Origin: Candidatus Poribacteria bacterium
Lineage (GTDB): Bacteria > Poribacteria > WGA-4E > PCPOR2b
Reading direction: 5' to 3'
Length of the DNA stretch: 64,000 nucleotides
Assembly: GCA_028819845.1 (NCBI GenBank)
Contig: JAPPKS010000027.1
Span: 186,001-250,000 of the forward strand
The notes below the pieces were generated by a model. That model was not told the DNA's origin. It did not search any database and saw nothing but the letters and a program-made list of their open reading frames with translations. The translations under genes were made by a program, and so were the position numbers. How positions within the stretch are numbered: the stretch's first letter is position 1; each line of letters begins with the position of its first letter. Positions 25,292-44,174 of the stretch are shown piece after piece.

Positions 25292-27595
25292 TTACGGTTG
25301 CACCAACACTAAATATTTCGTTCCCTTGTTCGAAGCGAGTCTGACGAGTTCTTTCAGTGCTGGCACCTGGTCGACTTCAACTTTCGGTTTTTGCAAGCGC
25401 AGAATTTGATTCATTGACAGTTTTCGCTTGGACTTTGTGTAGTTTATCTCCACGGATCCAATGCTGTTGTGAAACACTCGATTTTCTGGAACAGAATCTC
25501 CTACGAAGGGTGATGCTAAATTAACGGTTACTTCGTCCTCCAAGGTGAGTGTTCTTCCGATGACGACTGGATACGTGCGGCGCTCCTCACCCAGAAGGGA
25601 TTCGTAAGGGTTTTTGACAAGTGGTAGTTTTAGAAGAAATTGGCGTCCAATGGCAAATAGGTAATCCGTGCAGTGCCATGCTAGTGTAATCTTCAGTTGC
25701 TCATGCATCGCATCCAATTCAGAAATCTCAAAAGAGGTTAATGTGGCGCGGTTGTCAAGTTCCATATGTTCGTGCAAGAACTTCGCTCGCTCATCGGCGT
25801 GAAGATGTCTCAACTTATGTCGGAGTGTCGTGTTGAAATCCCCTGTTACAATGATTTCCTGTGTTGATTTTACCGAGAGATCGCTTTCGACGTGAATGTG
25901 AGTGACGGTACGCTTTAAATTCTGCTCTGGCGGAGGGGTTGGACTCTTTGCAAAACGAAATAAACGATTAGTCATCCCTTCATTCGTATCATGTTTTTCT
26001 TTCTTATGCTTGAAACTGCCCTGATTTACCTTGGCAAGTCGCTGTGACTGTGTAGAAGGGACTTTCATGAGGTAATCGGGATTAAGAATGAGTGCCCATC
26101 GGTCTTGATTGCTTGCAGGGAAATCACCAAATGCACATGTTTCCACAGTCGAGTCTAACCAGATGAAATCTGCGCCGTTTTTCTCCTCAACCGCGAGAAT
26201 CATGTGATTAAAGTAAGCGAGCGACGGAATCTCTCGCACGATACTGCGAGAGGCGCCAGCTGAAATCAACGCTGGATACGACCTAATCCCTGTAGCAGCC
26301 AACATAGTACTAAGCAATGTCGTTTTGTCTTTGCAATCGCCATATTTTTCTTTGAGAATCATGGGCGCCGGATGGGGTTTAATCGCCCAAATCCCAAGTT
26401 CGATTCCAACGTAATTGATGTTCGCGGTCACATATTCGTAAAGCCGCTTGATCTTTTCCTTTCGAGTCCAAGCCCCCTTTAGCAGTGCTTTTGTGGTCGC
26501 CTGAATTTCTGGCGAGATTAAATCTTGATCCTGGATGAGCGACGCATACCATTTGACCAATTCCTCCCACGATTCGATCGATGAGATGCTGATATTGTAT
26601 GCGACGTCTTCGATGGCTGGCATGAATTCCTCGCGACGTAACGCAGGCACATCGCGCACTTCAAATGTGAAAGTGCGCGTATAGTTGCCTTCCGTAATCA
26701 CCGGTTCAATTAACGGGCCGCTAGTCTGGTAATAGAACGGTTTATTTTTGGGCAGATTCACTGTGAAGCGGAAATACTGTACCGGTGCGGATGTTTGGTA
26801 ATAAATCTGGCGCCAGAATTCGCCTTGCATGATGTGGCCTAAGGTTTTGGATGAATAAGCGTAGTCAATGACGCAGCCATTGGACAATTCGGGAATTGTG
26901 AAGTGCATTAACCGAGCGTCAACAAACAACCCGCGTTCGACTGCACTTGGCGGAGGAATATCTTTAACAATTTTGCGCTGATCCAGTTCAGTCACCTGGC
27001 CGTCGGGCGTTATGCTTCGTGCATGATGAATGGTGATATTGTCATTTCCGCGCGTATAGGGGATACTAATCCCGCCGAATTTGAATCCTCCCTCGTTGTG
27101 AATCTTTACAACGCGGCGTGTGGAGTAAACAGAACTCGCATCGTCACAGATTTCCAATATCTCTGCTTCCCATAGGACGACCGCATTGGCATCGGGATAG
27201 CCGGGTATGGAAGCGGCATTGGAAACTAACTTCGCAATCTGCTTTTCATCTGAATTTGAAATAAAACCATAAGGGAGTGTTGATTTGGATTTAGGAGATA
27301 GGGTCGTACCGGGCAATTTTTCTTTGCGCGACTCATCTAACGTTTCAGTTCTAGTCGTAGATTGGGTTTCGTCGGAGACCGCGGGTAGTGCGACGAAATT
27401 GGACGGCGCGGAAAGATTTGTGTGCAATGAGCGTCGTATTTCGAATGTCGGCGATTGCGCGGGTAAGCTATCCGCCACTGTAACGATGTACTCTTTTAAG
27501 ACGGTATCCCCGAGAACCAGAGGATCGGCAAACCCGCCGCGAGCAGTGCACAAAATTGCAATCCATAAAGTACAGACAAAATGCGCTTTTGTCAT
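25292..27595 (-). CDS. secreted DUF3857 and transglutaminase-like protein
   Basis: A signal peptide (cleavage near G-G-F-A-D) leads a 767-residue exported protein. Residues about 150-330 fit the DUF3857 beta domain. A transglutaminase-like core follows with the catalytic Cys in K-Y-G-D-C-K-D-K (about 420), His in Y-F-N-H-M-I (about 463) and Asp in I-W-L-D-S-T (about 481), so the triad is intact. The C-terminal ~250 residues are a beta-rich domain usual for this architecture. Related proteins are periplasmic or surface-bound; the substrates are unknown. It shares a strand with the PGPGW-like gene downstream. Confidence 0.85.
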   Translation of the reverse strand: MTKAHFVCTLWIAILCTARGGFADPLVLGDTVLKEYIVTVADSLPAQSPTFEIRRSLHTNLSAPSNFVALPAVSDETQSTTRTETLDESRKEKLPGTTLSPKSKSTLPYGFISNSDEKQIAKLVSNAASIPGYPDANAVVLWEAEILEICDDASSVYSTRRVVKIHNEGGFKFGGISIPYTRGNDNITIHHARSITPDGQVTELDQRKIVKDIPPPSAVERGLFVDARLMHFTIPELSNGCVIDYAYSSKTLGHIMQGEFWRQIYYQTSAPVQYFRFTVNLPKNKPFYYQTSGPLIEPVITEGNYTRTFTFEVRDVPALRREEFMPAIEDVAYNISISSIESWEELVKWYASLIQDQDLISPEIQATTKALLKGAWTRKEKIKRLYEYVTANINYVGIELGIWAIKPHPAPMILKEKYGDCKDKTTLLSTMLAATGIRSYPALISAGASRSIVREIPSLAYFNHMILAVEEKNGADFIWLDSTVETCAFGDFPASNQDRWALILNPDYLMKVPSTQSQRLAKVNQGSFKHKKEKHDTNEGMTNRLFRFAKSPTPPPEQNLKRTVTHIHVESDLSVKSTQEIIVTGDFNTTLRHKLRHLHADERAKFLHEHMELDNRATLTSFEISELDAMHEQLKITLAWHCTDYLFAIGRQFLLKLPLVKNPYESLLGEERRTYPVVIGRTLTLEDEVTVNLASPFVGDSVPENRVFHNSIGSVEINYTKSKRKLSMNQILRLQKPKVEVDQVPALKELVRLASNKGTKYLVLVQP

Positions 27596-27790: not shown

Positions 27791-29212
27791 CTACGCGTCG
27801 CTCAAATGGAAGATTGCCATTTTCAGCTCGGTCATTTCTTCCACGGCGTACTTGGGTCCCTCTTTACCCATGCCGCTCTCTTTTAGCCCTCCATAAGGCA
27901 TCAAGTCGGCCCTCCACTGGGTTCCCCAATTAACCATCAGGTTACCCGACTCTACCTCTCGCACGAATTTCATCGCCCAGTCAATGTTTTGGGTGCAAAT
28001 CGCCGCACTCAACCCATAGTTCGTGTCGTTGGCTAACGCAATGGCATCATCGATGTTTTCTGCGGGGGTTACGCCAACAACCGGTCCAAAAATTTCATCG
28101 CAGGAAATTTTCATCTCCGGTTTAACGTTCGCGACGACTGTGGGATTATAAATTTGACCGTTCCTTCCCCCACCTGCAATCAGTTCAGCGCCGTCACCGA
28201 GAGCTTCCTCGACCCATTGATCCACTCGGATTGCATCGGACTCGCGAATCATCGGTCCCATCCGTGTAGGCTCATCAAGCGGATCTCCAGTAGTGATTTC
28301 CTCAACTGTCGTTTTAAAGGCATCCAGAAAGTCTCCGTAAATCTTCTCGTGAGCGATAACTCGCTGTGTCGAGATGCAGACCTGACCGGCATTTGAGAAT
28401 CCGGATGCCGCCGCCGCTTTGGCGACCTTCTCCGGATCCGCATCAGGCATAACAATGAGCGGCGAGTTTGAACCTAACTCCATTGTCACCCGCTTTAGCC
28501 CAGCAACGTGGCAAATATGTTCGCCAATATCACGGCTGCCAGTGAAGGTAATCTTTCGGACGCGTCGATCAGCGCATAACGCATCTCCAATATCTCCGCC
28601 CTGGCCTGTCAAACACTGAATCGCTTCTGGCGGTGCGCCAGCCTCCAATAGAATCTCAACTAGCTTAAGTGCCGACAGCGGTGTATCAGTAGCGGGTTTG
28701 ACGATAATAGCGTTTCCTGCTGCCAATGCAGGTCCGACTTTATGACAGACAAGGTGAAGCGGAAAGTTGAATGGACTTATACCTACAACGACGCCGCAAG
28801 GTACGCGCACAGTAAATCCGAACTTGCCGTGAGCACCCGGTGCACCTTCTAGCGGAACAACCTCACCGCCAAGCCGTTTAGCTTCTTCAGCCGAAAGTGC
28901 GATAATCTCCGCAGCACGGCTAGCTTCCATTCGCCCTTCACCGATAATCTTGCCTTCTTCTAATGTAATCGTACGGCCCAAATCTTCCGCGCGTTCCGCC
29001 ATCAGTTCTGAAGCTTTGTGAAGAATTTCGTATCGCTCGTAGCCGGTCAGCTTCGCCATGGCTTTTGCGCCGCGCACTGCAGTTTCAATCGCATTTTCAA
29101 CATCGTTGAGGTTTGATTTCGGAATCGTGTCGACAACCGAGTTGTCAAAAGGGTTCAACACATCTATCTTCTGTGGTCTATCAACCCACTCTCCGCCAAT
29201 GTGCATTCTCAT
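27791..29212 (-). CDS. NAD(P)-dependent aldehyde dehydrogenase
   Basis: This 473-residue ALDH has the cofactor segment S-P-F-N-F-P, the nucleotide loop F-T-G-S-R-D-I-G-E, general-base Glu in T-M-E-L-G-S-N (about 245) and nucleophile Cys in G-Q-V-C-I-S-T-Q-R (about 278). The G-Q-V-C-I-S-T-Q-R form is shared with lactaldehyde, glyceraldehyde-phosphate, sulfolactaldehyde and phosphonoacetaldehyde dehydrogenases, so the aldehyde is not fixed. Lactaldehyde would fit with the aldolase cluster at 44.5-50.5 kb, but the two loci are 15 kb apart. GGAGG nine bases before the ATG supports the start. Confidence 0.9.
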   Translation of the reverse strand: MRMHIGGEWVDRPQKIDVLNPFDNSVVDTIPKSNLNDVENAIETAVRGAKAMAKLTGYERYEILHKASELMAERAEDLGRTITLEEGKIIGEGRMEASRAAEIIALSAEEAKRLGGEVVPLEGAPGAHGKFGFTVRVPCGVVVGISPFNFPLHLVCHKVGPALAAGNAIIVKPATDTPLSALKLVEILLEAGAPPEAIQCLTGQGGDIGDALCADRRVRKITFTGSRDIGEHICHVAGLKRVTMELGSNSPLIVMPDADPEKVAKAAAASGFSNAGQVCISTQRVIAHEKIYGDFLDAFKTTVEEITTGDPLDEPTRMGPMIRESDAIRVDQWVEEALGDGAELIAGGGRNGQIYNPTVVANVKPEMKISCDEIFGPVVGVTPAENIDDAIALANDTNYGLSAAICTQNIDWAMKFVREVESGNLMVNWGTQWRADLMPYGGLKESGMGKEGPKYAVEEMTELKMAIFHLSDA

Positions 29213-30042: not shown

Positions 30043-30858
30043 CTACCCAACTTCCTGACCGTCCAGCCGACCGACCTGCAAATCAATTTCGTCGCGGGTC
30101 TCAATCTTCTCGACTTTTCCGTCAGCCATATAGAAAATGCGGTCCGATACATCAAGCATCTTTGTATCATGAGTAGCAGTAATGATTGTCACACCATTTT
30201 CTTCGTTCAACTGTTTCAGAAGGGCAATTATCTCTAGGCCCGTATGGGTATCAAGATTGCCTGTCGGCTCGTCCGCAAGCACAATTGCCGGATCGTTGGC
30301 AAGGGAGCGCGCAACGGCAACGCGTTGTTGCTGTCCACCGGAGAGTTCAAGTGGTTTATGCTGTATGCGATCGCCTAACCCCACAAGTGTAAGCAGGTCC
30401 GCTCCTTTTTGGCGGCTGTCATCGGCGGTCATACCGCCAAATATCATCGGTAGGGAGACATTTTCCAAGGCAGTCATCACAGGAATTAAATTGAACGATT
30501 GGAATATGTAACCGATCTTACGGCAGCGAAGCCATGCAAGCTCATATGCGTCTAACTGCGCAATATCCACCTCATCAATATACACCCTGCCTTCCGTCGG
30601 TTTATCCAGTCCCCCAATCATGTTAAAAAGCGTGGATTTGCCGCTACCAGAGGGGCCAATAATGGATATGTATTCGCCTCGGCGAATTTCGAAATTAACG
30701 CCTTGTAGTGCACCGACGATACTCGTACCCATCTCATATCTTTTAATTAAGTTCCTGACGCGCACGGTGTTTTCCTTCGGCAACTGCCGTGTTGCTCGCT
30801 CAGTAGTTTCCGCAGGAACATCACCACTATTTGCATCTATTGCTTGGGCTTCTGCCAT
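30043..30858 (-). CDS. ABC transporter ATP-binding protein (LolD/MacB type)
   Basis: A 271-residue ATPase with Walker [10 protein letters not shown], signature [14 protein letters not shown], Walker [12 protein letters not shown] and the switch His in A-T-H-D. The Q-Q-Q-R and D-E-P-T-G-N-L-D forms are characteristic of the LolD/MacB/FtsE group, whose permease partners are FtsX-type proteins. The only such permease here is the giant protein at 34684-42120, first gene of the same unit. The N-terminal ~30 residues are an acidic extension. The ATG follows the PqqD-like stop codon directly, so translation is coupled. It likely powers a mechanotransmission-type reaction rather than import. Confidence 0.95.
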
Positions 30859-31278
30859 CTATTTCTCCCCTCCTTTTGCTTTTTTGGAAACGGCAAATCC
30901 AATAATATTTCGTTTGCCCAACTGCCGCATAAACGTGAACAGCGACGTTTCCGCTTCTTTCCGTGTCATGCGGTATTGTGCACTAAGGTGTTTGGCAATT
31001 TGGCTAATCGAGTTATTCCCATCGCATAGACGCCATACAAATGACCCGACATCATCCAAAACAATTACACGTTTGTCAGGCAAGGAAAAAATCTTGGAAG
31101 CTATCCGAATCCATAGTTTCTGTTGCTGGGGAATAACAAGTGAAACCTCCTCTTTGTCATCAACTTCCCATTTGATTAACTGGTTTCGAAGCGGTAATGC
31201 GTTTAAGATACGCTCTCGGTCAAATTCCGAATCTGGACGTTTTTTTAATCTGAGTTTGTAAAGAATGGTATTAATCAT
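30859..31278 (-). CDS. PqqD-fold protein (RiPP recognition element-like)
   Basis: The 139-residue protein has the PqqD pattern in its C-terminal half: V-I-V-L-D-D-V-G-S-F-V-W, C-D-G-N-N-S-I-S-Q-I-A-K-H-L, then a helix with R-K-E-A-E-T-S and R-Q-L-G-K-R-N-I-I-G-F. PqqD-type winged-helix domains bind leader peptides in RiPP biosynthesis and also occur in proteins of unknown role. The ~60 N-terminal residues are not recognised. No radical SAM enzyme or precursor peptide gene is obvious nearby. It is immediately followed by the ABC ATPase gene and preceded, after 19 bases, by the two-repeat protein. Confidence 0.8.
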   Translation of the reverse strand: MINTILYKLRLKKRPDSEFDRERILNALPLRNQLIKWEVDDKEEVSLVIPQQQKLWIRIASKIFSLPDKRVIVLDDVGSFVWRLCDGNNSISQIAKHLSAQYRMTRKEAETSLFTFMRQLGKRNIIGFAVSKKAKGGEK

Positions 31279-31297: not shown

Positions 31298-32230
31298 CTA
31301 GTGACATCGAATGCTTGCTGCAACCCCCTCCACCGTCTTAGCTGCATCGCGCTTGGCGACCGCTTGTAAAACATAGATGCGATTGGACTTGTAGCAATGC
31401 CGAATGTGAGCGGCAAAGGTTTGCCGCCGCAATATTTTGTCAATAATCAATACAGGTGCAAAGGGTATGTGATCGGTCAGACGTGTACGTTCACCAATGC
31501 ACCTAAACCTCTCATCTCCATCGTCGGATTGTATAGATTCCATTTCGAAGCCATATCCTCGAATAGCCTTGGTATATTTGGCTCGAAACCAAGACTCCAA
31601 ATCGCTCTCTTTGAGAGTAATATCCGCTAGCCCATATCTTTCAATTGAAAGTTTGCGGCTGCCATCAACGAAAGACATTAATAGATATCCGGACAGGAAT
31701 TGATGTTTTTCGAGGCGGTATCGGCGTGGCACTTCAACGTTGAGTTGGTATGCGGTCCACAGGGGCGTCGGTCCAGCCGGATGATCGTGAAGCGAACTCA
31801 AGATACGTACGGATGTGGTGCGAAGATTTTCCTTTAGGTGTCCCATTACCTGGACAATTGTGATTCGTTTGCACGTGTGGCAGTGGCAGATTATACCATT
31901 TGCTCGGTAACTTCCCTTCCAACTAAAGAACACTGCCTCTTTACCGTCAAGGAAGGATTCATCTTTGATGAGATTGACATTCCGCTGGATATGAAGTTTA
32001 GCCTCTGTACGCCTAAAATTCTTGCGGATTAGTTTGAAATATTCGTCTAGGACGCGATGCAGATCCGGTTTCTTCTGCTTCGATTCAGACCACTTTAACT
32101 CTAGACGCGGCGTCGTTTCATCGTCTAACCGCAAGTACCCTTTTTTCTCGTCACCAGATAATCCACTCAACTCCCAGTTCGCTGGAATCTCTAAAGTGAT
32201 ACCCGCCCAACCAAAATTTGTCCATTCCAT
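31298..32230 (-). CDS. uncharacterised soluble protein made of two diverged repeats
   Basis: I do not recognise the family. The 310 residues seem to consist of two related halves. Half one has W-A-G-I-T-L-E-I-P-A-N-W-E-L, K-G-Y-L-R-L, L-D-E-Y-F-K-L-I-R-K and then C-H-C-H-T-C-K-R-I-T-I-V-Q-V-M-G. Half two has W-T-A-Y-Q-L-N-V-E-V-P-R-R-Y-R-L, S-G-Y-L-L-M-S-F, L-E-S-W-F-R-A-K-Y-T-K-A and H-I-R-H-C-Y-K-S-N-R-I-Y-V-L-Q-A-V-A. The order and spacing agree. The strand pattern recalls the Mog1/PsbP-like alpha-beta fold, which is an inference. Cys and His residues cluster at equivalent points of both halves and could bind metal. There is no signal peptide, so it is probably cytoplasmic, acting beside PqqD and the ATPase. 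Confidence 0.75.
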   Translation of the reverse strand: MEWTNFGWAGITLEIPANWELSGLSGDEKKGYLRLDDETTPRLELKWSESKQKKPDLHRVLDEYFKLIRKNFRRTEAKLHIQRNVNLIKDESFLDGKEAVFFSWKGSYRANGIICHCHTCKRITIVQVMGHLKENLRTTSVRILSSLHDHPAGPTPLWTAYQLNVEVPRRYRLEKHQFLSGYLLMSFVDGSRKLSIERYGLADITLKESDLESWFRAKYTKAIRGYGFEMESIQSDDGDERFRCIGERTRLTDHIPFAPVLIIDKILRRQTFAAHIRHCYKSNRIYVLQAVAKRDAAKTVEGVAASIRCH

Positions 32231-32343: not shown

Positions 32344-34332
32344 TCAGAACGGTTTAACAATGACTGCTTTGGAAACCAATGCGATAGCCACCGTTCCCAT
32401 TCCAATAAGGCCAACACCGCAGGTAAAACCGGCTGCCAAAACTGGATTAAACATAAACCACCGTTTCAACCCGAATCGCTTGATCATATAAAAGCGGCCT
32501 ATTATTGCCCCGATTAGCCGTGGAATCATCATCCCTGGGTCGGCGCCGATACCGCCCACGATGCCGTAAAACCACATACTAGGCATCTTTGCTAACCAGA
32601 GGAGGCCGTAGATAGCAAGCGAGCCGGTCAATCCGGTCGCAACGTAGTCGCCTCTGATGGCTTGCAACATCTGACTGCTTCCATCTCGAAGTGAGGTCTT
32701 CCACAGACATTCGTTGGTTGCGTAAATTGGCCACCAAGTTTGAGCGAAAGGATATTGCGCTGAAGGAATTGGCGCAATTTTCCAAATGAAATGCCATACC
32801 AGAATTCCGGAAATTAGTAGGATCGGCATAATCAATAGATGGGCTGCAATGTTACTTGTAAACGTAGTTCCCGTCAGTTCGCACACACGCCAACCTTGTG
32901 TGCCGCGGCCGTAGTCCTCATTTGGTAATTCAACGAACCAAATGTCGATTTCCTCGTAGCGGCTCAAGATAAAGGTAGTCTCGTGGATATAGGGGATTTC
33001 AAAGAGATCCCGCCCCAATACCCCAAATGTACGCGCAGTGACGTAGGAATTTAGCGGGGTGTATATAAAAGCAAAGCCGAGCAAAAATTTCATCGGAAAA
33101 TTCGGTACCATCCAATGCACCATCCACACAAAACCGATCATGCCGATAAGCCACAATCCCGCCATTAGCCAGAGCGGAAAATCTCCGCGTCCCGGTGGTG
33201 TTTGAAGCGACCCGCGCGTACCGGTAGTTTCCTGTCTAGCAGATCGAAATTTCATTAGCATGGGAACAGATGCAGCAAGTCCGACGATTGCGAAACTGAA
33301 AGCTTTACCCATATTGGCGCTAATCCAGAAATCCAAGCCATTGAACAAACCCACGCCGCGGACATCCAAACCCGCACGCCATTGATACAAAATTTCATGT
33401 TGGTAGAGTTGCGGATTCAGGAAAAACTGGGTAAACATTGCCGCGATGAATTCTGTCATCACGATTGGAAATGGCAGCACAAACCCAAAGAGAATTTGTC
33501 CAAAATCGGTGGAGAGCGCAAACACTCCTGTCGGCGCAAAACCTTCAATACTAGGCGTAAAATCAATAAATGGGATTTTTAGAATCTCAATCGGCTCTGA
33601 CATCATCACGCCAGTAAGTGAAGGAATACCGATATAGAGAAAACCCCACAGTAACCCCGCCATGGAACCGATAGAAAACACACGCCAACGCCACGTTTCC
33701 GCCCTGCCTGTGGTCTCTGCCAGAGCCGTCGCTCCTTGTGCTTCAATAGGCGCTAGTGGATACGGAAGTCGTTCTAGGTCAGCAGTGAGCCGGAACAAAA
33801 AATAACCTGCGCTGATATGTCGGATTGTCCCAAGCAGCCGCATGACCAAAAAGATCCAAATAGGCGTCCACCAATCCATGTGCAAAAGCGATCTTTCGGC
33901 AATAGCAATCGAATCCGGTGATGGCGTGACCCAAAAAGGAATCTTGTCGGCTATTTCATAGGACTCTGCTTGAGGCGTTTGCACAAAATAGGCGTACCAG
34001 ATGAAGCCGCGGTACTGAAGCCCCGAACCGACCGCCGCACCAGTAAGTCCAAGCAGTAAGAATAACTCCTGTCGTCTGGCGGTCGTAAATGAGCGGCGCG
34101 CCAATTCTGTAAATAGAATGACCGCTACCCACGGCGCGGCGCCCGCGCCCGTTTGGCCCGACACTAATTGCAGGTAGATTGAGCCCGGCATCATCAACAG
34201 CCCTACAAAAAGCGCCCCTAAAAAGACTTTGAGAGTTAATCCGGATTCAAAAGTCCGAATCCCGCCCTCCATGTCGTAACGCTGCGCCCAAGCCTGCCAC
34301 TCCTCGGCTTGCGATATTCTCTCTCTCGCCAA
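32344..34332 (-). CDS. OPT-like polytopic membrane transporter
   Basis: The 662-residue protein has about 14 hydrophobic segments. The N-terminal part (L-T-L-K-V-F-L-G-A-L, then Y-L-Q-L-V-S-G-Q-T-G-A-G-A-A-P-W) resembles the oligopeptide transporter (OPT) superfamily, and the C-terminal G-A-I-I-G-R-F-Y and N-P-V-L-A-A-G-F-T are OPT-like in character. The motif E-R-L-P-Y-P-L-A-P-I-E-A is shared in form with the membrane protein at 55622-57529. It starts at a TTG (34332) eight bases after AAAGGAG. It belongs to the same strand and run as the PqqD-like and ABC genes, which hints at a peptide-like or metal-chelate substrate, but that is inference. Confidence 0.75.
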   Translation of the reverse strand: MARERISQAEEWQAWAQRYDMEGGIRTFESGLTLKVFLGALFVGLLMMPGSIYLQLVSGQTGAGAAPWVAVILFTELARRSFTTARRQELFLLLGLTGAAVGSGLQYRGFIWYAYFVQTPQAESYEIADKIPFWVTPSPDSIAIAERSLLHMDWWTPIWIFLVMRLLGTIRHISAGYFLFRLTADLERLPYPLAPIEAQGATALAETTGRAETWRWRVFSIGSMAGLLWGFLYIGIPSLTGVMMSEPIEILKIPFIDFTPSIEGFAPTGVFALSTDFGQILFGFVLPFPIVMTEFIAAMFTQFFLNPQLYQHEILYQWRAGLDVRGVGLFNGLDFWISANMGKAFSFAIVGLAASVPMLMKFRSARQETTGTRGSLQTPPGRGDFPLWLMAGLWLIGMIGFVWMVHWMVPNFPMKFLLGFAFIYTPLNSYVTARTFGVLGRDLFEIPYIHETTFILSRYEEIDIWFVELPNEDYGRGTQGWRVCELTGTTFTSNIAAHLLIMPILLISGILVWHFIWKIAPIPSAQYPFAQTWWPIYATNECLWKTSLRDGSSQMLQAIRGDYVATGLTGSLAIYGLLWLAKMPSMWFYGIVGGIGADPGMMIPRLIGAIIGRFYMIKRFGLKRWFMFNPVLAAGFTCGVGLIGMGTVAIALVSKAVIVKPF

Positions 34333-34406: not shown

Positions 34407-34592
34407 TCATTTTTTTTGCTGAAAGAGTTCCTCCCAGATGTGGGCGATAAAGATGGCGACAACCAAAATTGCGGCCGAAAGCACCTGCGGCTGCCATCGC
34501 CCACCCAAAAAGAAGATAGATATGACCCAAAGAATTACGCCGATGATGATAAAAAAGCTTGCTAACTTTTCTCCAAAGTTTACCATGCGCAT
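34407..34592 (-). CDS. 61-residue membrane peptide
   Basis: A short frame with two hydrophobic segments (F-F-I-I-I-G-V-I-L-W-V-I-S-I-F and V-L-S-A-A-I-L-V-V-A-I-F-I-A) joined by a basic turn, and a charged tail ending E-E-L-F-Q-Q-K-K. AAGGGA precedes the ATG. Position between the giant permease gene and the OPT-like gene, with 70-90 base gaps and the same direction, suggests it is a real small subunit. No family is recognised. Confidence 0.65.
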   Translation of the reverse strand: MRMVNFGEKLASFFIIIGVILWVISIFFLGGRWQPQVLSAAILVVAIFIAHIWEELFQQKK

Positions 34593-34683: not shown

Positions 34684-37600
34684 TCAGTCCGCCGGCTGTG
34701 GTGCTAGTTCAAGGTTAGGAGCATCCGTGAATTGGCGATCGTGCCGACCGCGTTCATGGAATTCGCCGCGAACATCGGCGCTGAAGGTTCGCCAGACCAA
34801 CAGTTGCTTGCGAATTAGGTTCAAGAAACGCCGGTTGACGCGTTTCCAAGAGGCAATTTCGCCGCTTTCGCGGTGCACATCAAGGGTGATGTTGTAGAGA
34901 TCCTCTTCTTCGCCGCCAACCGGAGAAGTCACAAATCGAATGGATTGACCGACCCCTAAATCGTAAGGGGCTACCCATGCCATCATGCTTATCGCGTACG
35001 TTTCTTTTTCCCTGCCTTCAATCTCCTCGGTTGACCGGTTAAAAGAGATTTGGTCAGTATAGAAATCGCTCGCAGATTCGTCGGAGTGGGCTTCAAAATA
35101 GTCCCGCATAAATACGTTCAAACCAAGTGATTCCTCGGATAGAACAGTGAAGGGAAGGTCAAAGTGCCACTCGTCGCCTTCCGGTTCAGGTAATTTCCAC
35201 TTCCGTTCAATGTCGGGCACAGCCATCCGTCCGGCTTTTACAGCGGGGTAAAGTGTGCTGCTTATGACCACTAACATAACGATAATGGTTGCCACCACTG
35301 TGGACATTGATGAGTAATTGAGGGTCAATCCAGCAAGCCAGCCAAAATTCACTAGGAGAGTAGCCACGACTTGACCGAGTAAGTAACCCAACACTGCCCC
35401 CACAATCGCGTACACACACGCCTCTGCAAGAAACAGAAAAGCAATATGCACCGGCGCTAGCCCGACAGAGCTGTAAATACCAATTTCCCGAACTCTTTCA
35501 TACACGGCGCCGAGCATTGTGTTCAGTACGATTAGTGACGCGATAAGTATTGGCACAAATAAGTTCCCCATGCCGGAGAACGAAGTCATCCCAATTGAGC
35601 TGTAGAGGTAAGTATCTTTGTTCCGGCCGACGAAAAAGTCGAGTGCAATGCGGCTCATTAGGGGTGCCATTATTAAATCTAGTTTATCAACGCCGGTCAG
35701 GAACGGCGGATCGCCTTCTTGAGGGTTCATATTAACCGCGACCGATCGCAGTGTTCCGCCTTGATTAATTATTACCTCGTATGGCAAAACTGCGATGCTA
35801 TCCGGCGTAAGGTGGAGATACTTCTGTAACTCGCCCTCAAGCGTTTCTTCTCCCTCGCCCCCGCGCGATTGCTGCTGATGCATCAATTGATAATCAACAG
35901 GAGTGAGTTCTTCGCCGTCATTATCTGTCAAATCCTTAAACCCAATGCCCAACACACCGGTTACAGTGAATTTGGCACCATAAACTGAGATAGTGGCTTT
36001 CCCCATATCAGATTCGCTGATTTCCAAGAGATCCGCCATACCTTTCGGCAATACGCACACATACGGCCATTGGGTCGGCCATTCCGCTTCGTCTGCAGGG
36101 TCAAACCATTTGCCGTACTGGAGGTAACGGTCAATACCGGTGACACCCGGCTCATCAGGGCTCATTCCCACCAGCATGTTTGCCGCAAAACTTAGCGGTT
36201 CATCGGTCAATGGATCTTTCGGCGGCACAGGATCTTTGGAATTCTCAATACGCGTCAACTGCACGAACGATTGATCGCCGGTACCCGAAGACTGATACCA
36301 TGCCCGCGGCGCGACAACATTGTGCACCGTGATATACGCTTGATCCTTCAGCCCACTGGCCGCAGTCGAGGACCTGACCTCTGCCCCAGTACCATTATCC
36401 CCATCAATTTTAGCCGAGGCAAGCAGCGAATCAACTTCAGCGGGCGACTTCCCTTTCTTTTTCAACAGGAGTCGGAGTTCATTTTCGCCAATCCGCGTTT
36501 TACGCATATCGTTCGTTACGGACGTAATTACCGGTTCCTCCAATGGAATCCAGTATTGATCTCGAATCAGCATCCCCGTGTATTTGGGCGTTACAGAAGG
36601 CAAAGAGGTGCTGTTGGGTTGCATAAAGGTTCGAACCGATGTGAAGGAGATTACCGTGAATGTTAAAATTACCAGCGTGGCGCATGTAAGGAGAGTGCGG
36701 CCTTTCCGCTTGCGCATATTGGAGATGCCAAGGCTAAAGGCTGCGGCGGACGCGGCAAGGCGGCCAACATCCGCTTTATAAACCTTCGACCGTTCCTGCT
36801 TAATCTGTTCTAACTGCTCCTCAAATTTCCGGACGATGATACTTATCACGATCACAGTTAATGCTAACACAACGAAGGCAATTAGTATAATAACTGGCGT
36901 CGTGGTAATCTGGAAGGCTGGATGTGCTTGCGAGAGGAAAAAGAACACTACGAGAAAGATGGCAAACACACCGAGAATCTGTTTGTGAACATCCGGAAAT
37001 GCGAAAATTAGGCGTTCCATAAAGTACGCAAAGGGGATTAGCAGTGCGAGATAGAACATAACACCGTTAACCACATCGTTGCCGGTCTTTTTAACATCTG
37101 GATATGCACGCGATTCATAGCCCCATGCCCCGCGGGCCAGTTTCATCGCCATGGAATAGTCCTTTTTATCCAAAGCAACTTCTGCCTGTTCTAAATGTTC
37201 GTTCGAAAAAAGGTGTAGTTTGTCGAGGCGATCACTGCTAATACCGAACCGTTTGTAAAGGCTGGTGCGGTTTTCATCCAGCCACCACATGTCGCGCACG
37301 ACGACGTACGGAGTGAGGCGCACAGAGCCGTTTTCCTGCACGACGAACCCTTCTCCAGTGTAAAGGGTCGGGTTTTTGGCGCCGCTCTTGCCTGCTTTAA
37401 TCAGCAGCAGCCGCTTGCCAATTTGGCCGTATGCCATGCCGATTTTGATGCGGGAATTCGGTTCAGAATAGACCAAGGCAATCGGTTCTGTCGCCGAGAC
37501 CATCGGCTGTTGCCACGGCTTGGAAACGCCGTATTTCTCCGGAGGACTGTCGCTTCGCGCATCATAGACGTTCAATTCGCGAAGTGTCCGCAAATACCGC

Positions 37601-40600
37601 TGGTCGACCAAGTCGTAGATGGTGGTGGAAACGCACGGAAAAACCACAATGCGGCAACCGCGCCGGCGTGTGGTGATAGGCACCTTATTCGGTAGTAGTT
37701 CTGCGCCAAAGTTGCCCAAATCGGGTGCGTAGGAAATATCTCCCGAATCGGAATCAAGGATATACGCTTCGACCTCTTGCGTGCCGCCGCGCCGTTGAAT
37801 GGCGCGCCCTTCCATCGCCAATCCGACCACTTCGAACACGCCTTTGTTGTCTCCCATCGTAAAGAGATCGCCGCGAACACCCATCATTGTCTTGTTTTTA
37901 CGCCGCAGCGTAAGAATTGGATGCGGCACCGGTTTGTTCGGCAAAGCGCTTTCGCGTGCATCGTACTCTACAACGTCGCCAAACAGATTACAATAGAAGT
38001 TGCCTACGCGCGCCGCGGTCGGCATCTTCGGGTCCCGCATCGCCTGAATTAGAATTGCTGCGAGCGTTTTCGCCTGTCTGTGTAAATTACCGTCTTCCCT
38101 CAAATCCATTTTATCAATTGTATCTAACGGCGTGTCCGTGAGCACCCGCGCATCATCTATGGTGGCAAATGCAATCCCCGTTTTACCGACTAGCGTCGCG
38201 ACTTCGCTGTCAAATGCAATTTTGCCGGGGATATACGTTGTCCATGTTTTTCCGCCTGAAGCAGAAATAGCGTTAACGAAGTTGGTAGCCCCTCCTAACC
38301 CGACAATGTCTATAAGAGTCTTGATGTCATCAATTTCCTCCTCGGTCAAATCGGACGGTTTCACTTTCCGAAGGGCAAGCATTGCAGGCAGCCGATTGAA
38401 GAGGCGAATACTGTTTTTGCGTTCTTTTCGGGCTTCGCGCTGATCGTTTCGGATGAATCGCTCGACCTCCTTACGGATATAGTCCATATCCTTCAGCATA
38501 TCTTCAGACGGTTCGCCTCGGTCTCTCATCTGTTCAAACTGCATCTTCATTAAACGCGAAACGCCGGAAAGTTTGACTAACGTCGTGTAGTGTTCGTCAA
38601 TCAGCGTCTCCAACGATTTGCCCTCTATCGCCTGTTTGGACTCAATGCCAGATGCGATTTCCCATTGACTGTTCATCACCGCCTGCCGAATCTGATCGTC
38701 CGTAAACGTCCAAAGGTTGTTAATACGGACGCCAAAATCTACATCCTCGGCATACTCGGCGAGTTTGTTGCCGATGAAAGCAAATTCGCGCCGCAGCACA
38801 AATTCAGGTTGCTGGTCGTAGAACCAACCTTTGTTGAACACACCAAATTTGTCATTTTGGGTAGATAAGTCGATAGAAACAAACAACGAGGTATAGTAGC
38901 GGTTGAAAAGGTCTTGTAGGGCAATTGCCTGCTCGATGTTGGTAACTTTCCGGTCATATTCCGACTTGCTAATACGTGCAATCACCTGCACCCGTTTTTG
39001 GATGTTACGGAATCTGGCATTTCGCAGCGTTAGCATGTTATCGCGAAGCAGCGTCTTCATCTCTTCTGGAAGATCTCGGTCGAGTTCGTCTAAGCGGTTT
39101 AACATATTCTGAAGTTCTACAACATCGTTCTTCGCACGCTGTTTAACTAGCCGAAGCAGTCGTTGTTGCTCCAGTTGTGCGACAACCTGGGCGCGTACCT
39201 CTATCGCCGTGTCAACTTCGTCGGCTGGAAGGTAGTGGCTCAACACCAGTAATTCTTCCTCAAGATACGGTCGGTTCAACGACGCGTGGCGTTGCAATTC
39301 CAAAAGCGACTCAATTCGCTGCCGTTCAAGTCTTGCATTTCGCATGGCGGTTTCGAAGATGGCTTGTTTATCTTTAGTCAGTTCTTCAATGAAAATGGCA
39401 TGCGATTCTCGATCTACTGCGCCGGCATCGGCGGTCTCGATTTCCGCCAATTTTTGACGAAGCTGTTTTTGAATGGTCTTGAATCGGTCGAGACTGGATT
39501 CGCCAAGGAATGGACCGACAATCGTGTCTATATCATCCGGAGCATATGCAGCATCCCTTCGTAAACTGTTAATGGCGGTTTTGATGCGTGACGCCGAGTC
39601 TGAATCGGAAGGTATCTTTTGGAGCGTGCGGAATAAGACCTGTTCCTCTTCGGCAATGTACTCGCTTAAGGCTCTAGTCGCGCGATGTACAATTGTGCGG
39701 GCTTCTTTTATCTGTTCCAAGCCGTGAAAATCGAGATGCCGATCCAGGAGTTGTTCTTGAGCATATTGAAGCGCAAACTTTCGGCGGTCTTTGAGTTCCC
39801 AATCCTCTAAATGGCCGGAAAGCCGAATCACTGCTTCTGCCAAAGGCGTGCCAACCAAATCGGACGGTACCTGTAGGTGGTAATTTCCGTCTTCGTCCGC
39901 ATTCGGCTGAAGGTAGGAACTGTCAGCCGTTCGGTCGTAGTTGCCACCGATGTTTTTCGCCGCCAGATCGGCCTCTAGCTTGGTAATCGCCCACTCATCA
40001 AGCCGCGCCATCGGCAACGCGATATTCTCAATCAGATCCCGTTGCGCCTTTCGAGACTCTTCCAAGGCTTGAGAACGTAAATTATCCACACGTCTGACTA
40101 CAGATCGCAAAAATTGGGTAGTCTGTAACGCATCCTTTTTGTACTTAGCCAGGTTTATTTCAAGGCGGGAATGCTCCTCTTGGGTAAAACCCTGTTTTTC
40201 GCGTTTTTTAGTAGTTTCTAGTTTCTTCTTCTGTTTTTCTTTATAATCCCTTTGAGCGTCCCTTAACCATTCGACACGACCTCGAGTCCCTTCAAGATCG
40301 CCTAATGTAATTTGGAGTGAATCGAGGGCAGCGTCAAGTTGATGGACTTCGTAAAAGAAATTCGGAGGCAAATCCACCAATACGTTCCTATCTATAGACA
40401 GCAACAGCTTGCGGCCGAGTTCTTTAAATTCAAACAGGTCTGCTGCTAAACCCCGTCGCAGTCCGCGCATGGTTGGCGTTCCGGGTGAATCGGCTTCGCG
40501 CCCCACAACATCTTGGCCAATCCCCTCCATGAACGCTCGCATTCCTGCCAACCCCTGAAAATGTGCGTCCGCAGCAACGAACAGTATTGAACGCCCCGGC

Positions 40601-42120
40601 CGGAATTCTGCTTTGCTAAAAATGCGCGCTAATTCGAGAAGCGCAGCGATCCCACCGGTAGGATCAGCGCCTGGCGCAATCGCAGGAACAACCGACATGG
40701 AGTCATAATACGCCGTGATTACGACAAGTTCATCCTTGAGTGCTGGATCGCCTCCATCAAGAAAACCGCGGATATTCTGCCCAATTCGTCGTTCCCAAGT
40801 CATCGTTGCACTGAGACGGACAGTGACGTCCCTGGCCTCCTTATGTTGTTCGCCGCCGGATGAGGTAGGGTCGGAAGTTTCACCAAGCATCGTTAACAGT
40901 TTTTCAGCATCCGTCCGAGAAATCCAAAACCGCGGTATGTTGGCGGGAACAGTCAGGAACTTATTCTCTGCTTCACCGCGAATTGTGGTTTCCGGTTCAA
41001 TGAAAACTACCGCCTTCGCGCCGAGCATTGCTGCGTTAATCCATTTGGTACTGGAGTTGAAATCGATCAATACTACGCTGCCGCGAGGTATAAAGATGCT
41101 CGATTCGTAAGCAGCGATGAACTCGCCATCCTCGTCAATACGTCCGTCGTTGTTGTTGTCTATGCCGTCCGTCTCTCCGCCGGGTTGCTCATCAATAAAG
41201 CCGTCCGCGTCGTTATCAATGCCGTCTGTATCCCAATGCAAAATATCCGCGAGGAGTGGGATTTCCCCGTATTCATCGATTTGACCATTCTCGTTGTTAT
41301 CAATACCGTCCTCGGTTTTCTGAAGATGACCGTTTAGTACATCATCGGTGATGCTCCCGACGCCGACGCGAAAGCGATGGGCAATGTCTCGCAGGGTATC
41401 ACCCGGCTGAACCTCGTACCAAAAACCGCCGATGTCTTTTCCATTGAAGTCTACCAATTCGCCGCCGCCGCCGTAAAAAAGCGGCGCGGTTAATCCGCCG
41501 GTAGGTATAAATATCTTATTTCCGTCTATCAACGCGAATTCCCCGGGTTCATCGACCAATCCATCGCCGTTGTTGTCCCGCCCGTCGGTCGCCTGATCTT
41601 GGAGAAACTTATTGTGAGGGTCATCAAGAATGGATTGAATGTCAACGCGGTAGGATTGAGCAATTGCCTCTAAGGATTCTCCGCCTTCAACCAGATGTTT
41701 AATTCCTGTGGGAAGTAGTGAGGTTCGGACGAGGTTTGGCCAAACCGACCGCAAATCAATCGTCACGATCGCATTCTCGTGTTCATCAAGCACCGCAAGC
41801 GTTCCGTCGCCATGGTCCATCGGAACGGTGATTGGGAATTCGCGGCTTTCGACATTCTGCAAGCCTATCTCTGCAAACCGGTCGAAGATGTATTTGCTGG
41901 CGGAAGCCGCTTCGGGATAACCCGTCACGCGGCTCGATAGGCTAGAAAGCCGTGCGATGTCCTTTCGCATACTGCCGATATCCACCCGATCCCGAATCTC
42001 AACAGCAATTTCTGAAAGGCCGATGGATTGGTCTCCTTCGGATGCTAACAGCATCTGCGAGGAAATCAAGGTGAGCAGGAAAAATCCTATAACACAGACA
42101 AACGAGTTTCTCGCAGTCAT
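34684..42120 (-). CDS. giant multidomain FtsX/MacB-type permease with LysM, Ca-binding-like repeats and degenerate M28 domain
   Basis: About 2,478 residues. The ATG at 42120 has GGAG upstream and starts a signal peptide (M-T-A-R-N-S-F, core, A-S-E); the frame is open to 42264 but that overlaps the promoter. Domain order: a helical N-terminal part; LysM 1 (about 41705-41620) and LysM 2 (about 41425-41335); four D-G-x-D-N-x-x-x-G-x-x-D-E repeats resembling dockerin/thrombospondin-type calcium loops (41130-41600). Next a PA-like insert and an M28 peptidase fold in which the zinc ligands are altered (A-Y-Y-D-S for A-H-Y-D-S, and H-F before Q-G-L for E-E). Then ~650 residues of charged helices likely to form coiled coil, a beta-rich part, three membrane spans (about 36800-37070), and a MacB-like permease: N-R-M-type first span near 36680 and three spans at 35230-35560, with an extracytoplasmic domain between. 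Only the ABC ATPase encoded five genes downstream fits as its partner. Function unknown. Confidence 0.85.
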   Translation of the reverse strand: MTARNSFVCVIGFFLLTLISSQMLLASEGDQSIGLSEIAVEIRDRVDIGSMRKDIARLSSLSSRVTGYPEAASASKYIFDRFAEIGLQNVESREFPITVPMDHGDGTLAVLDEHENAIVTIDLRSVWPNLVRTSLLPTGIKHLVEGGESLEAIAQSYRVDIQSILDDPHNKFLQDQATDGRDNNGDGLVDEPGEFALIDGNKIFIPTGGLTAPLFYGGGGELVDFNGKDIGGFWYEVQPGDTLRDIAHRFRVGVGSITDDVLNGHLQKTEDGIDNNENGQIDEYGEIPLLADILHWDTDGIDNDADGFIDEQPGGETDGIDNNNDGRIDEDGEFIAAYESSIFIPRGSVVLIDFNSSTKWINAAMLGAKAVVFIEPETTIRGEAENKFLTVPANIPRFWISRTDAEKLLTMLGETSDPTSSGGEQHKEARDVTVRLSATMTWERRIGQNIRGFLDGGDPALKDELVVITAYYDSMSVVPAIAPGADPTGGIAALLELARIFSKAEFRPGRSILFVAADAHFQGLAGMRAFMEGIGQDVVGREADSPGTPTMRGLRRGLAADLFEFKELGRKLLLSIDRNVLVDLPPNFFYEVHQLDAALDSLQITLGDLEGTRGRVEWLRDAQRDYKEKQKKKLETTKKREKQGFTQEEHSRLEINLAKYKKDALQTTQFLRSVVRRVDNLRSQALEESRKAQRDLIENIALPMARLDEWAITKLEADLAAKNIGGNYDRTADSSYLQPNADEDGNYHLQVPSDLVGTPLAEAVIRLSGHLEDWELKDRRKFALQYAQEQLLDRHLDFHGLEQIKEARTIVHRATRALSEYIAEEEQVLFRTLQKIPSDSDSASRIKTAINSLRRDAAYAPDDIDTIVGPFLGESSLDRFKTIQKQLRQKLAEIETADAGAVDRESHAIFIEELTKDKQAIFETAMRNARLERQRIESLLELQRHASLNRPYLEEELLVLSHYLPADEVDTAIEVRAQVVAQLEQQRLLRLVKQRAKNDVVELQNMLNRLDELDRDLPEEMKTLLRDNMLTLRNARFRNIQKRVQVIARISKSEYDRKVTNIEQAIALQDLFNRYYTSLFVSIDLSTQNDKFGVFNKGWFYDQQPEFVLRREFAFIGNKLAEYAEDVDFGVRINNLWTFTDDQIRQAVMNSQWEIASGIESKQAIEGKSLETLIDEHYTTLVKLSGVSRLMKMQFEQMRDRGEPSEDMLKDMDYIRKEVERFIRNDQREARKERKNSIRLFNRLPAMLALRKVKPSDLTEEEIDDIKTLIDIVGLGGATNFVNAISASGGKTWTTYIPGKIAFDSEVATLVGKTGIAFATIDDARVLTDTPLDTIDKMDLREDGNLHRQAKTLAAILIQAMRDPKMPTAARVGNFYCNLFGDVVEYDARESALPNKPVPHPILTLRRKNKTMMGVRGDLFTMGDNKGVFEVVGLAMEGRAIQRRGGTQEVEAYILDSDSGDISYAPDLGNFGAELLPNKVPITTRRRGCRIVVFPCVSTTIYDLVDQRYLRTLRELNVYDARSDSPPEKYGVSKPWQQPMVSATEPIALVYSEPNSRIKIGMAYGQIGKRLLLIKAGKSGAKNPTLYTGEGFVVQENGSVRLTPYVVVRDMWWLDENRTSLYKRFGISSDRLDKLHLFSNEHLEQAEVALDKKDYSMAMKLARGAWGYESRAYPDVKKTGNDVVNGVMFYLALLIPFAYFMERLIFAFPDVHKQILGVFAIFLVVFFFLSQAHPAFQITTTPVIILIAFVVLALTVIVISIIVRKFEEQLEQIKQERSKVYKADVGRLAASAAAFSLGISNMRKRKGRTLLTCATLVILTFTVISFTSVRTFMQPNSTSLPSVTPKYTGMLIRDQYWIPLEEPVITSVTNDMRKTRIGENELRLLLKKKGKSPAEVDSLLASAKIDGDNGTGAEVRSSTAASGLKDQAYITVHNVVAPRAWYQSSGTGDQSFVQLTRIENSKDPVPPKDPLTDEPLSFAANMLVGMSPDEPGVTGIDRYLQYGKWFDPADEAEWPTQWPYVCVLPKGMADLLEISESDMGKATISVYGAKFTVTGVLGIGFKDLTDNDGEELTPVDYQLMHQQQSRGGEGEETLEGELQKYLHLTPDSIAVLPYEVIINQGGTLRSVAVNMNPQEGDPPFLTGVDKLDLIMAPLMSRIALDFFVGRNKDTYLYSSIGMTSFSGMGNLFVPILIASLIVLNTMLGAVYERVREIGIYSSVGLAPVHIAFLFLAEACVYAIVGAVLGYLLGQVVATLLVNFGWLAGLTLNYSSMSTVVATIIVMLVVISSTLYPAVKAGRMAVPDIERKWKLPEPEGDEWHFDLPFTVLSEESLGLNVFMRDYFEAHSDESASDFYTDQISFNRSTEEIEGREKETYAISMMAWVAPYDLGVGQSIRFVTSPVGGEEEDLYNITLDVHRESGEIASWKRVNRRFLNLIRKQLLVWRTFSADVRGEFHERGRHDRQFTDAPNLELAPQPAD

Positions 42121-42235: not shown

Positions 42236-42264
42236 ATTCTATCACAGTCAAGAAATCTTGTCAA
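42236..42264 (-). promoter_or_regulatory. strong promoter of the six-gene permease operon
   Basis: On the minus strand: consensus TTGACA, 17 bases, TAGAAT with an extended TGA element. It lies about 115 bases upstream of the ATG at 42120, giving a leader of about 110 bases. Confidence 0.75.
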
Positions 42265-43290: not shown

Positions 43291-43472
43291 TCACCAGTAT
43301 TTTGCGCAAAGCCTTAACCTACTAGTAATGATGTCGCGAGTACCGGTAGGTGACGAATCGGAGTTTCGGTGGATGCGGAATGCGCCACTGCAACGAAGGT
43401 GGTAAATACTGCTTCGTTAGCAACGGCTGTATAAAAGTAATAATCTGCAAAATGAAAGCGAGCTTGAATTGT

Positions 43473-44174
43473 ATGACAAATACTCGCTGCAAAGTCAAAA
43501 TATGCGGTACAACCAATATTGTAGACGCGCAGATGGCAGCCGAGGCCGAGGCGGATTACACCGGGATAGTAGTTGAAGCGTCTGTTTCCGAGCGGTCTGT
43601 TTCTGTTTATCACGCTGCCGAAATTGCACGTTTTACCAAGATTTCAACGGTCGTGCTGATATATAATCGGCCGGTAGACTGGATTGAAAAAGCCGTGGGC
43701 AAGATAAATCCTTTTGCGCTTCAACTGCTTGGAGATGAAACGCCCGATGAAATCTTTAGATTGAAACGGGTGCTGTCGTGCGAAGTCTGGAAATCGCTTT
43801 TTTTGCCGTCAGATGCCGGGAGAGAATTTGATGCTCGTGCCATCAATGCAAAAGCAAAAACTTACGTCGACGCTGGGGCAGATGCCCTGTTGTTCGACAC
43901 AGTCGATTTCGGCGCGGGAAGAGCTCGATTTGGCGGTACCGGCAAGACTAGCGATTGGAAACTTGCAAGGCAACTAATAGGCGATTCAAAAATTCCCGCG
44001 TTCTTGGCGGGCGGAATTCGCCCTGAAAATGTCAAGGCGGCGATTGAAAACGTCCGTCCTTTTGGAATCGATCTCTGTTCCGGCGTTGAATCGGAGAAGG
44101 GTATACGAGATCGCCAGAGGTTGAATGTACTCATGCAACAAGTGCGTGTTGCATCCAATGCGAATTCAAGTTGA
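43473..44174 (+). CDS. phosphoribosylanthranilate isomerase-like protein
   Basis: The protein has TrpF hallmarks: V-K-I-C-G-T with the catalytic Cys near residue 11, an Asp in L-L-F-D-T-V-D, then F-G-G-T-G-K-T-S-D-W and A-G-G-I-R-P-E-N-V-K-A-A-I, and I-D-L-C-S-G-V-E-S-E-K-G at the phosphate site. TrpF rearranges phosphoribosylanthranilate in tryptophan synthesis. Here it stands away from any trp gene, 182 bases after a sugar isomerase-like gene, and the central part is diverged (V-L-I-Y-N-R replaces the usual V-G-V-F). The annotation as a true TrpF is therefore likely but not certain. The frame is open to 43350; the ATG at 43473 gives the family N-terminus, and 43452 is an alternative. Confidence 0.8.
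   Translation: MTNTRCKVKICGTTNIVDAQMAAEAEADYTGIVVEASVSERSVSVYHAAEIARFTKISTVVLIYNRPVDWIEKAVGKINPFALQLLGDETPDEIFRLKRVLSCEVWKSLFLPSDAGREFDARAINAKAKTYVDAGADALLFDTVDFGAGRARFGGTGKTSDWKLARQLIGDSKIPAFLAGGIRPENVKAAIENVRPFGIDLCSGVESEKGIRDRQRLNVLMQQVRVASNANSS

Follow-up and report, generated by a model that had tools for sequence, protein, structure and literature searches.

An M28-like domain within a giant gene

When a protein domain carries the sequence pattern of an M28 peptidase and the residues expected to hold its zinc ions are replaced, does it still cut peptides, and what might it do if it does not? Such a domain lies in a genome of the Poribacteria, uncultured bacteria best known as sponge symbionts. 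The original prediction had recognized an M28 fold pattern at positions 40540-40740 of the stretch of DNA analyzed here (64,000 nt; hereafter the window). We find that this segment belongs to a single minus-strand open reading frame of 2,478 codons, P0001, counted from an ATG. A TTG at 42264 is listed as an alternative start, and we prefer the ATG because the signal peptide begins there. Residue numbers below count from this ATG and coordinates refer to the whole window. The gene and its recognizable parts are as follows.

34684..42120, minus strand: P0001, giant M28-like/FtsX permease (open reading frame and translation; homologues in 82 of 85 genomes)
42040..42120, minus strand: signal peptide, residues ~1-27 (hydrophobic N-terminus by hydropathy)
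41821..41979, minus strand: N-terminal helices and strand of the M28 fold, residues ~48-100 (profile alignment with M28 proteins and 2ek8)
41347..41694, minus strand: two LysM motifs, residues 143-166 and 235-258 (Pfam PF01476, E = 1.3e-6)
41131..41586, minus strand: four calcium-binding-type loops, DGxDNxxxGxxDE, at residues 179, 271, 299 and 318 (pattern match)
40897..41088, minus strand: PA-like domain, residues 345-408 (Pfam PF02225, 20.4 bits, below the cut-off of 23.9)
40501..40848, minus strand: first M28 half, residues 425-540 (Pfam PF04389 and PDB profile hits)
38896..40500, minus strand: helical, coiled-coil-like insertion, residues ~541-1075 (AlphaFold secondary structure, mostly good confidence)
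38011..38313, minus strand: second M28 half, residues ~1270-1370 (profile alignment via insert-free homologues; wide alignment)
36817..37077, minus strand: three extra membrane helices, residues ~1682-1768 (hydropathy)
35221..36702, minus strand: FtsX core (Pfam PF02687; MacB and LolC chains; hydropathy)

By sequence and profile comparison, the P0001 domain is a member of the M28 family. The Peptidase_M28 model PF04389 matches residues 450-532 well above threshold (E = 2.6e-8; 34.3 bits, cut-off 21.3), and PDB profile hits agree, so the fold had been recognized correctly. Only model positions 2-78 of 193 are covered by this match, which captures just the domain's first half. The remainder of the fold resumes about 535-550 residues further on, at ~38011-38313 plus one strand near 38870. 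In most homologues from other phyla the long helical insertion is missing, and one insert-free homologue, L137, matches PF04389 over model positions 1-187.

The loop after the H520-F521 helix is an insertion hot spot across the M28/FtsX family. In Poribacteria it is occupied by the ~535-residue helical insert. In L126 an F5/8 type C domain stands there, L138 has two hydrophobic stretches and L135 a further long stretch, and other homologues have about 30 residues. Because the inserts are so varied or absent, and because L137 matches the model over nearly its full length, this loop is an insertion point within a single M28 fold and not the end of a domain. An AlphaFold model of residues 415-1400 (33 sequences) gives a good coiled coil and an M28 core too unreliable for the geometry of the site to be read; a Foldseek search of the PDB with this model returned no match at E <= 0.001. 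The model of the C-terminal half is poor.

The order of parts has precedents among soluble enzymes. Both 2ek8 and Bacillus subtilis YwaD (6hc6) run from an N-terminal part of the M28 fold through a PA domain to the M28 core, as P0001 does, and a profile of insert-free homologues matches them with E = 9.6e-18 and E = 4.1e-14, respectively. However, these two enzymes have intact zinc ligands, whereas P0001 has three of them replaced and is fused to an FtsX permease.

Replacement of the zinc ligands

In the well-known Vibrio/Aeromonas aminopeptidase (AAP), the two zinc ions are bound by His97, Asp117, Glu152, Asp179 and His256, and Glu151 is the general base. Following AAP numbering, we mapped the site onto P0001 from profile alignments with PDB chains and from a profile-profile alignment with four M28 proteins of the same genome (99.7%, E = 1.5e-26, 375 columns). 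The corresponding residues are listed below.

40699..40713, minus strand: AYYDS, residues 470-474, with Y471 at the His97 position and an invariant D473 (profile alignments, column conservation)
40663..40665, minus strand: D486, near the position of the bridging Asp117, in a loop one residue shorter (profile alignment, column conservation)
40558..40563, minus strand: H520-F521, at Glu151 (base) and Glu152 (ligand) (profile alignments, column conservation)
38869..38871, minus strand: D1084 of a DLS motif, at the Asp179 position, kept (profile alignment, column conservation)
38134..38136, minus strand: D1329 of DTPLD, at the His256 position (profile alignments, column conservation)

Within the first M28 half, two substitutions had been proposed, namely the loss of the first zinc His in A-Y-Y-D-S and the replacement of the Glu pair by H-F, and both hold in these alignments. 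The AYYDS motif does lie where it was described, with its coordinates two bases away from the 40697-40711 first given. The second half of the domain, which lay beyond the original prediction, adds another loss, His256 to D1329. Altogether, of the five ligands His/Asp/Glu/Asp/His, three are replaced, the bridging Asp is variable and Asp179 is kept, and the general-base position holds H520 instead of a Glu. Elsewhere in this genome there are four full-length M28 matches above the cut-off, whose motifs are as expected apart from a single variant at the Glu-Glu pair. By this comparison, the ligand losses are specific to P0001 within its genome.

The His at the general-base position needs separate consideration. 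It is the same residue as in the E151H mutant of AAP, whose structure 2anp is the best-scoring AAP chain in our PDB profile search and whose sequence shows the His. Judging by the title of their 2005 report, as listed in PMC4320195 and PMC3426542, Bzymek et al. reportedly found this mutant to be functional. Therefore, as far as that title goes, a change of Glu151 to His is by itself no proof of inactivity. Nevertheless, 2anp retains its zinc ligands and the P0001 family does not. What speaks against a peptidase in our alignments is Tyr/Phe in place of His97, Phe in place of Glu152 and Asp in place of His256, and these changes make classical peptidase activity of the P0001 domain very unlikely.

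A rewritten site under selection

We compared the site across homologues. In a first alignment, all 66 distinct Poribacteria sequences carry [AG]YYD, HF, the Asp of DLS/DLT and DTP; the deep Poribacteria branches agree with the substitutions, with YFD in two. The ligand losses are common to every homologue that covers the site, namely the 66 Poribacteria sequences and members of at least three other phyla. Glu152 and His256 are absent from every such member and His97 from nearly all, and no family member with an intact M28 site was found among the site-covering homologues sampled. The loss of the ligands probably predates the family as sampled.

We then took 35 representatives, some from Poribacteria and some from other phyla, that share less than 80% identity. 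All 35 have D473, and H520, D1084 and D1329 are each present in 34. These four residues rank among the 32 most conserved of 460 well-filled columns. At the abandoned ligand positions, by contrast, the residue varies: residue 471 is Y, F, H or P, residue 486 is D, E, N, Q, S or G, and residue 521 is F, H, Y, G or R. The sole exception to the conserved set is L135, in which H520, D1084 and D1329 are lost together. Since these four residues are near-invariant over several phyla, the pocket would appear to have a function under selection, and we regard the site, on the pattern of its columns, as rewritten and not decayed. It is possibly a different metal site; the strict His/Asp/Asp conservation could reflect a new catalytic or metal site instead of plain binding.

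Three members (L177, L181 and L184) have a His at position 471, each together with a Tyr or His at 521, a pairing that suggests contact between the two positions. On a quick tree with long branches and no outgroup, His at 471 requires at least three changes.

The binding or scaffold role originally favored over proteolysis is thus partly supported: it fits in that the ligands are replaced throughout the family, and it needs amending in that the site has not decayed and in that Glu151 to His alone is no proof of inactivity. Two trivial explanations of the pattern were also set aside: chance resemblance is ruled out by its fixation in 66 distinct Poribacteria homologues, and a sequencing error or pseudogene by the conservation of the 2,478-codon open frame over 82 genomes.

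A type VII ABC permease in a conserved gene block

The C-terminal part of P0001 identifies the kind of machine to which the M28-like domain is attached. The FtsX-type permease model PF02687 matches residues 2189-2299 (46.2 bits against 25.5; E = 5.6e-12), and MacB and LolC chains are PDB profile matches of the FtsX part. This core comprises a first helix (1807-1829), a weak MacB-like periplasmic region (1981-2060) and the last three helices (2180-2297). For the periplasmic region, PF12704 scores 21.2 bits in P0001, below its cut-off of 27, and 32.7 bits in the homologue L126. P0001 is far from LolCDE itself, with 26.4 bits against 473 for PRK10814 and 13 against 362 for lolCE.

Five partner genes lie directly downstream of P0001 on the same strand.

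34407..34592, minus strand: 61-aa membrane protein (position conserved in most loci)
32344..34332, minus strand: P0002, 662-aa multi-pass membrane protein, weakly OPT-like (profile scores, conserved position)
31298..32230, minus strand: P0003, 310-aa protein of no known family (conserved position)
30859..31278, minus strand: PqqD-family protein, 139 aa (Pfam PF05402, E = 2.6e-12; conserved position)
30043..30858, minus strand: P0004, LolD-class ABC ATPase, 271 aa (NCBIfam LolD the best model; conserved position)

Based on their spacing and order, the six genes probably form a single transcription unit. The exact order (M28/FtsX, 61 aa, 662 aa, 310 aa, PqqD, ATPase) is found in 48 loci, and most of the remaining loci, including diverged families with enough flanking sequence, keep it as far as the contig end or without a detectable 61-aa gene. 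P0004 matches PF00005 with 118.9 bits, and its best NCBIfam model is LolD at 233.8 bits, under the equivalog cut-off of that model. The PqqD-family neighbor scores 47.3 bits against a PF05402 cut-off of 23.4 and reaches no equivalog cut-off. P0002 relatives adjoin the giant permease across phyla. Their likeness to the OPT family (PF03169) stays below its cut-off of 25.8 bits (18.9 for P0002, 15.6 for a homologue); P0002 alone reaches no Pfam or NCBIfam family, and its profile finds no match in the PDB. P0003 likewise matches nothing in Pfam or NCBIfam and is conserved within the block.

With an FtsX-type permease domain and a LolD/MacB/FtsE-class ATPase encoded in the same conserved block, P0001 has, by its sequence, the core features of a permease of a type VII (LolCDE/MacB-like) ABC system. 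A non-peptidase role still fits, but a scaffold takes on another meaning here, since the segment first seen is one piece of an ABC permease of 2,478 residues whose operon is conserved.

Three genes lie beyond the ends of the block. A secreted DUF3857/transglutaminase-like protein (25292-27595) and an aldehyde dehydrogenase (27791-29212) are not block members in relatives, and an open reading frame at 43350-44174 resembles, by eye only, phosphoribosylanthranilate isomerase (a TrpF-like TIM barrel).

In other phyla the block may run from M28/FtsX through 662 aa, (310 aa) and PqqD to a 220-aa mini-FtsX and the ATPase (L127-L129), and some homologues there lack some of the partner genes nearby. 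The Poribacteria genome also encodes a mini-FtsX (238 aa, ~44% identical), followed by its own LolD-class ATPase. The pair lies ~129 kb away, outside the window (contig C35, ~356.8-358.3 kb; L006), and a mini-FtsX is present in 27 of the 30 genomes searched.

Distribution

The giant gene is found in 82 of 85 Poribacteria genomes and 21 of 22 genera, and its records in the named genome collection are all from Poribacteria. Of the ~300 genomes sampled from other phyla, 10 contain long relatives (~1,460-1,950 aa) that match a profile built from the C-terminal half, and there is one further, short match. In three other small phyla the gene is present in all genomes searched (2/2, 16/16 and 5/5), and most of the 16 hold several copies. 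Two genomes have a second, stand-alone copy in a frame of ~2,560 aa with no block partners (L075 and L076; also L123 and L124).

Relation to known systems

LolCDE, MacAB-TolC and FtsEX-EnvC share with the P0001 system an FtsX-type permease core and a LolD-class ATPase, but they have no M28-like head, no such extra helices and no OPT-like or PqqD partners. The transferrin receptor and nicalin, which are among the profile hits of the M28 domain, are M28-like, membrane-bound non-peptidases with binding or assembly/structural roles. They are, however, eukaryotic and not ABC permeases, and we know of no conserved His/Asp/Asp set in either.

Another parallel is YbbAP-TesA, which, like the P0001 system, combines a type VII permease, extra membrane helices and a periplasmic hydrolase fold (PMC12646458). 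In type VII systems ATP moves periplasmic domains and a periplasmic partner protein, in one case a hydrolase, sets the job; YbbAP-TesA is proposed to hand molecules extracted from the membrane to its hydrolase (PMC12646458). The two systems differ in that TesA is a separate, active GDSL esterase, whereas the hydrolase fold of P0001 is fused to the permease and its site is rewritten. The P0001 system and its combination of genes are undescribed in the open-access literature that we searched, which leaves out most subscription journals.

A proposed role for the M28-like head

Based on these comparisons, we propose that the M28 domain lies outside the cytoplasm and is probably the non-peptidase head of a type VII (MacB/LolCDE/YbbAP-like) ABC machine. 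The role that fits best is that of an ectodomain acting as a receptor or clamp, which ATP would drive by mechanotransmission. In such a machine, ATP binding would move the stalk and the head, and the rewritten pocket would bind, without cutting, a peptide- or lipopeptide-like ligand of the envelope. The OPT-like and PqqD proteins hint at a peptide cargo; the nature of the cargo and the direction of its movement are what we infer, not what we observe. LysM motifs bind peptidoglycan, and in Poribacteria they, the calcium-type loops and the helical insertion may anchor or extend the head. The most economical arrangement would be a heterodimer of the giant FtsX and the mini-FtsX on LolD-like ATPases, a pairing that is a guess because the mini-FtsX lies outside the block in Poribacteria.

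The conservation of the pocket bears on three other explanations. In the first, which is the main rival, the two-zinc site became a single-metal site, formed by H520, D1084 and D1329 with His471 in some members, that supports another hydrolysis or metal-dependent binding. The near-invariance of these residues and of D473, the joint loss of three of them in L135 and the appearance of His471 always beside Tyr521 or His521, as if in contact, all speak for such a center, as does the functional AAP enzyme with His at Glu151 announced by the 2005 title. However, Glu151 of AAP is not a metal ligand and the same invariance also fits a hydrogen-bonded pocket, and we consider a single-metal site unlikely. 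In the second, the M28 domain is purely a structural spacer whose conserved residues stabilize the fold, and what matters is the FtsX core, the insertion and the LysM motifs. Non-peptidase M28-like domains do exist as binding or structural parts, as noted above for the transferrin receptor and nicalin, and the insertion point tolerates very different inserts. Yet a spacer would have no need of a His/Asp/Asp set, and the pocket positions rank among the most conserved columns while other ligand positions drift, which makes this explanation quite improbable. Finally, a still-active M28 aminopeptidase with unusual ligands is barely credible: the fold is kept, a His can serve at the base position of AAP if the 2005 title is taken at its word, and three members have a His at the first ligand position, but two ligands are gone from every member and a third from nearly all, and the bridging-Asp position varies. 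A peptidase with an intact site was rejected.

A fuller scenario than the non-peptidase head can be put forward as a speculation, one that would more readily fail than hold in all its parts. The P0001 system would be an undescribed type VII machine, core to several uncultured phyla, whose former two-zinc peptidase site had already become a single-metal His/Asp/Asp center, or a metal-free ligand pocket, when the copies sampled here diverged. Coupled to ATP hydrolysis, this center or pocket would sense or process a peptide-like substrate of the envelope. A rewritten M28 head on an FtsX-type ABC permease is an undescribed joining of two well-studied families. Its dead-looking site appears to be under strong selection and points to defined residues for testing, while small soluble constructs are available through the insert-free homologues.
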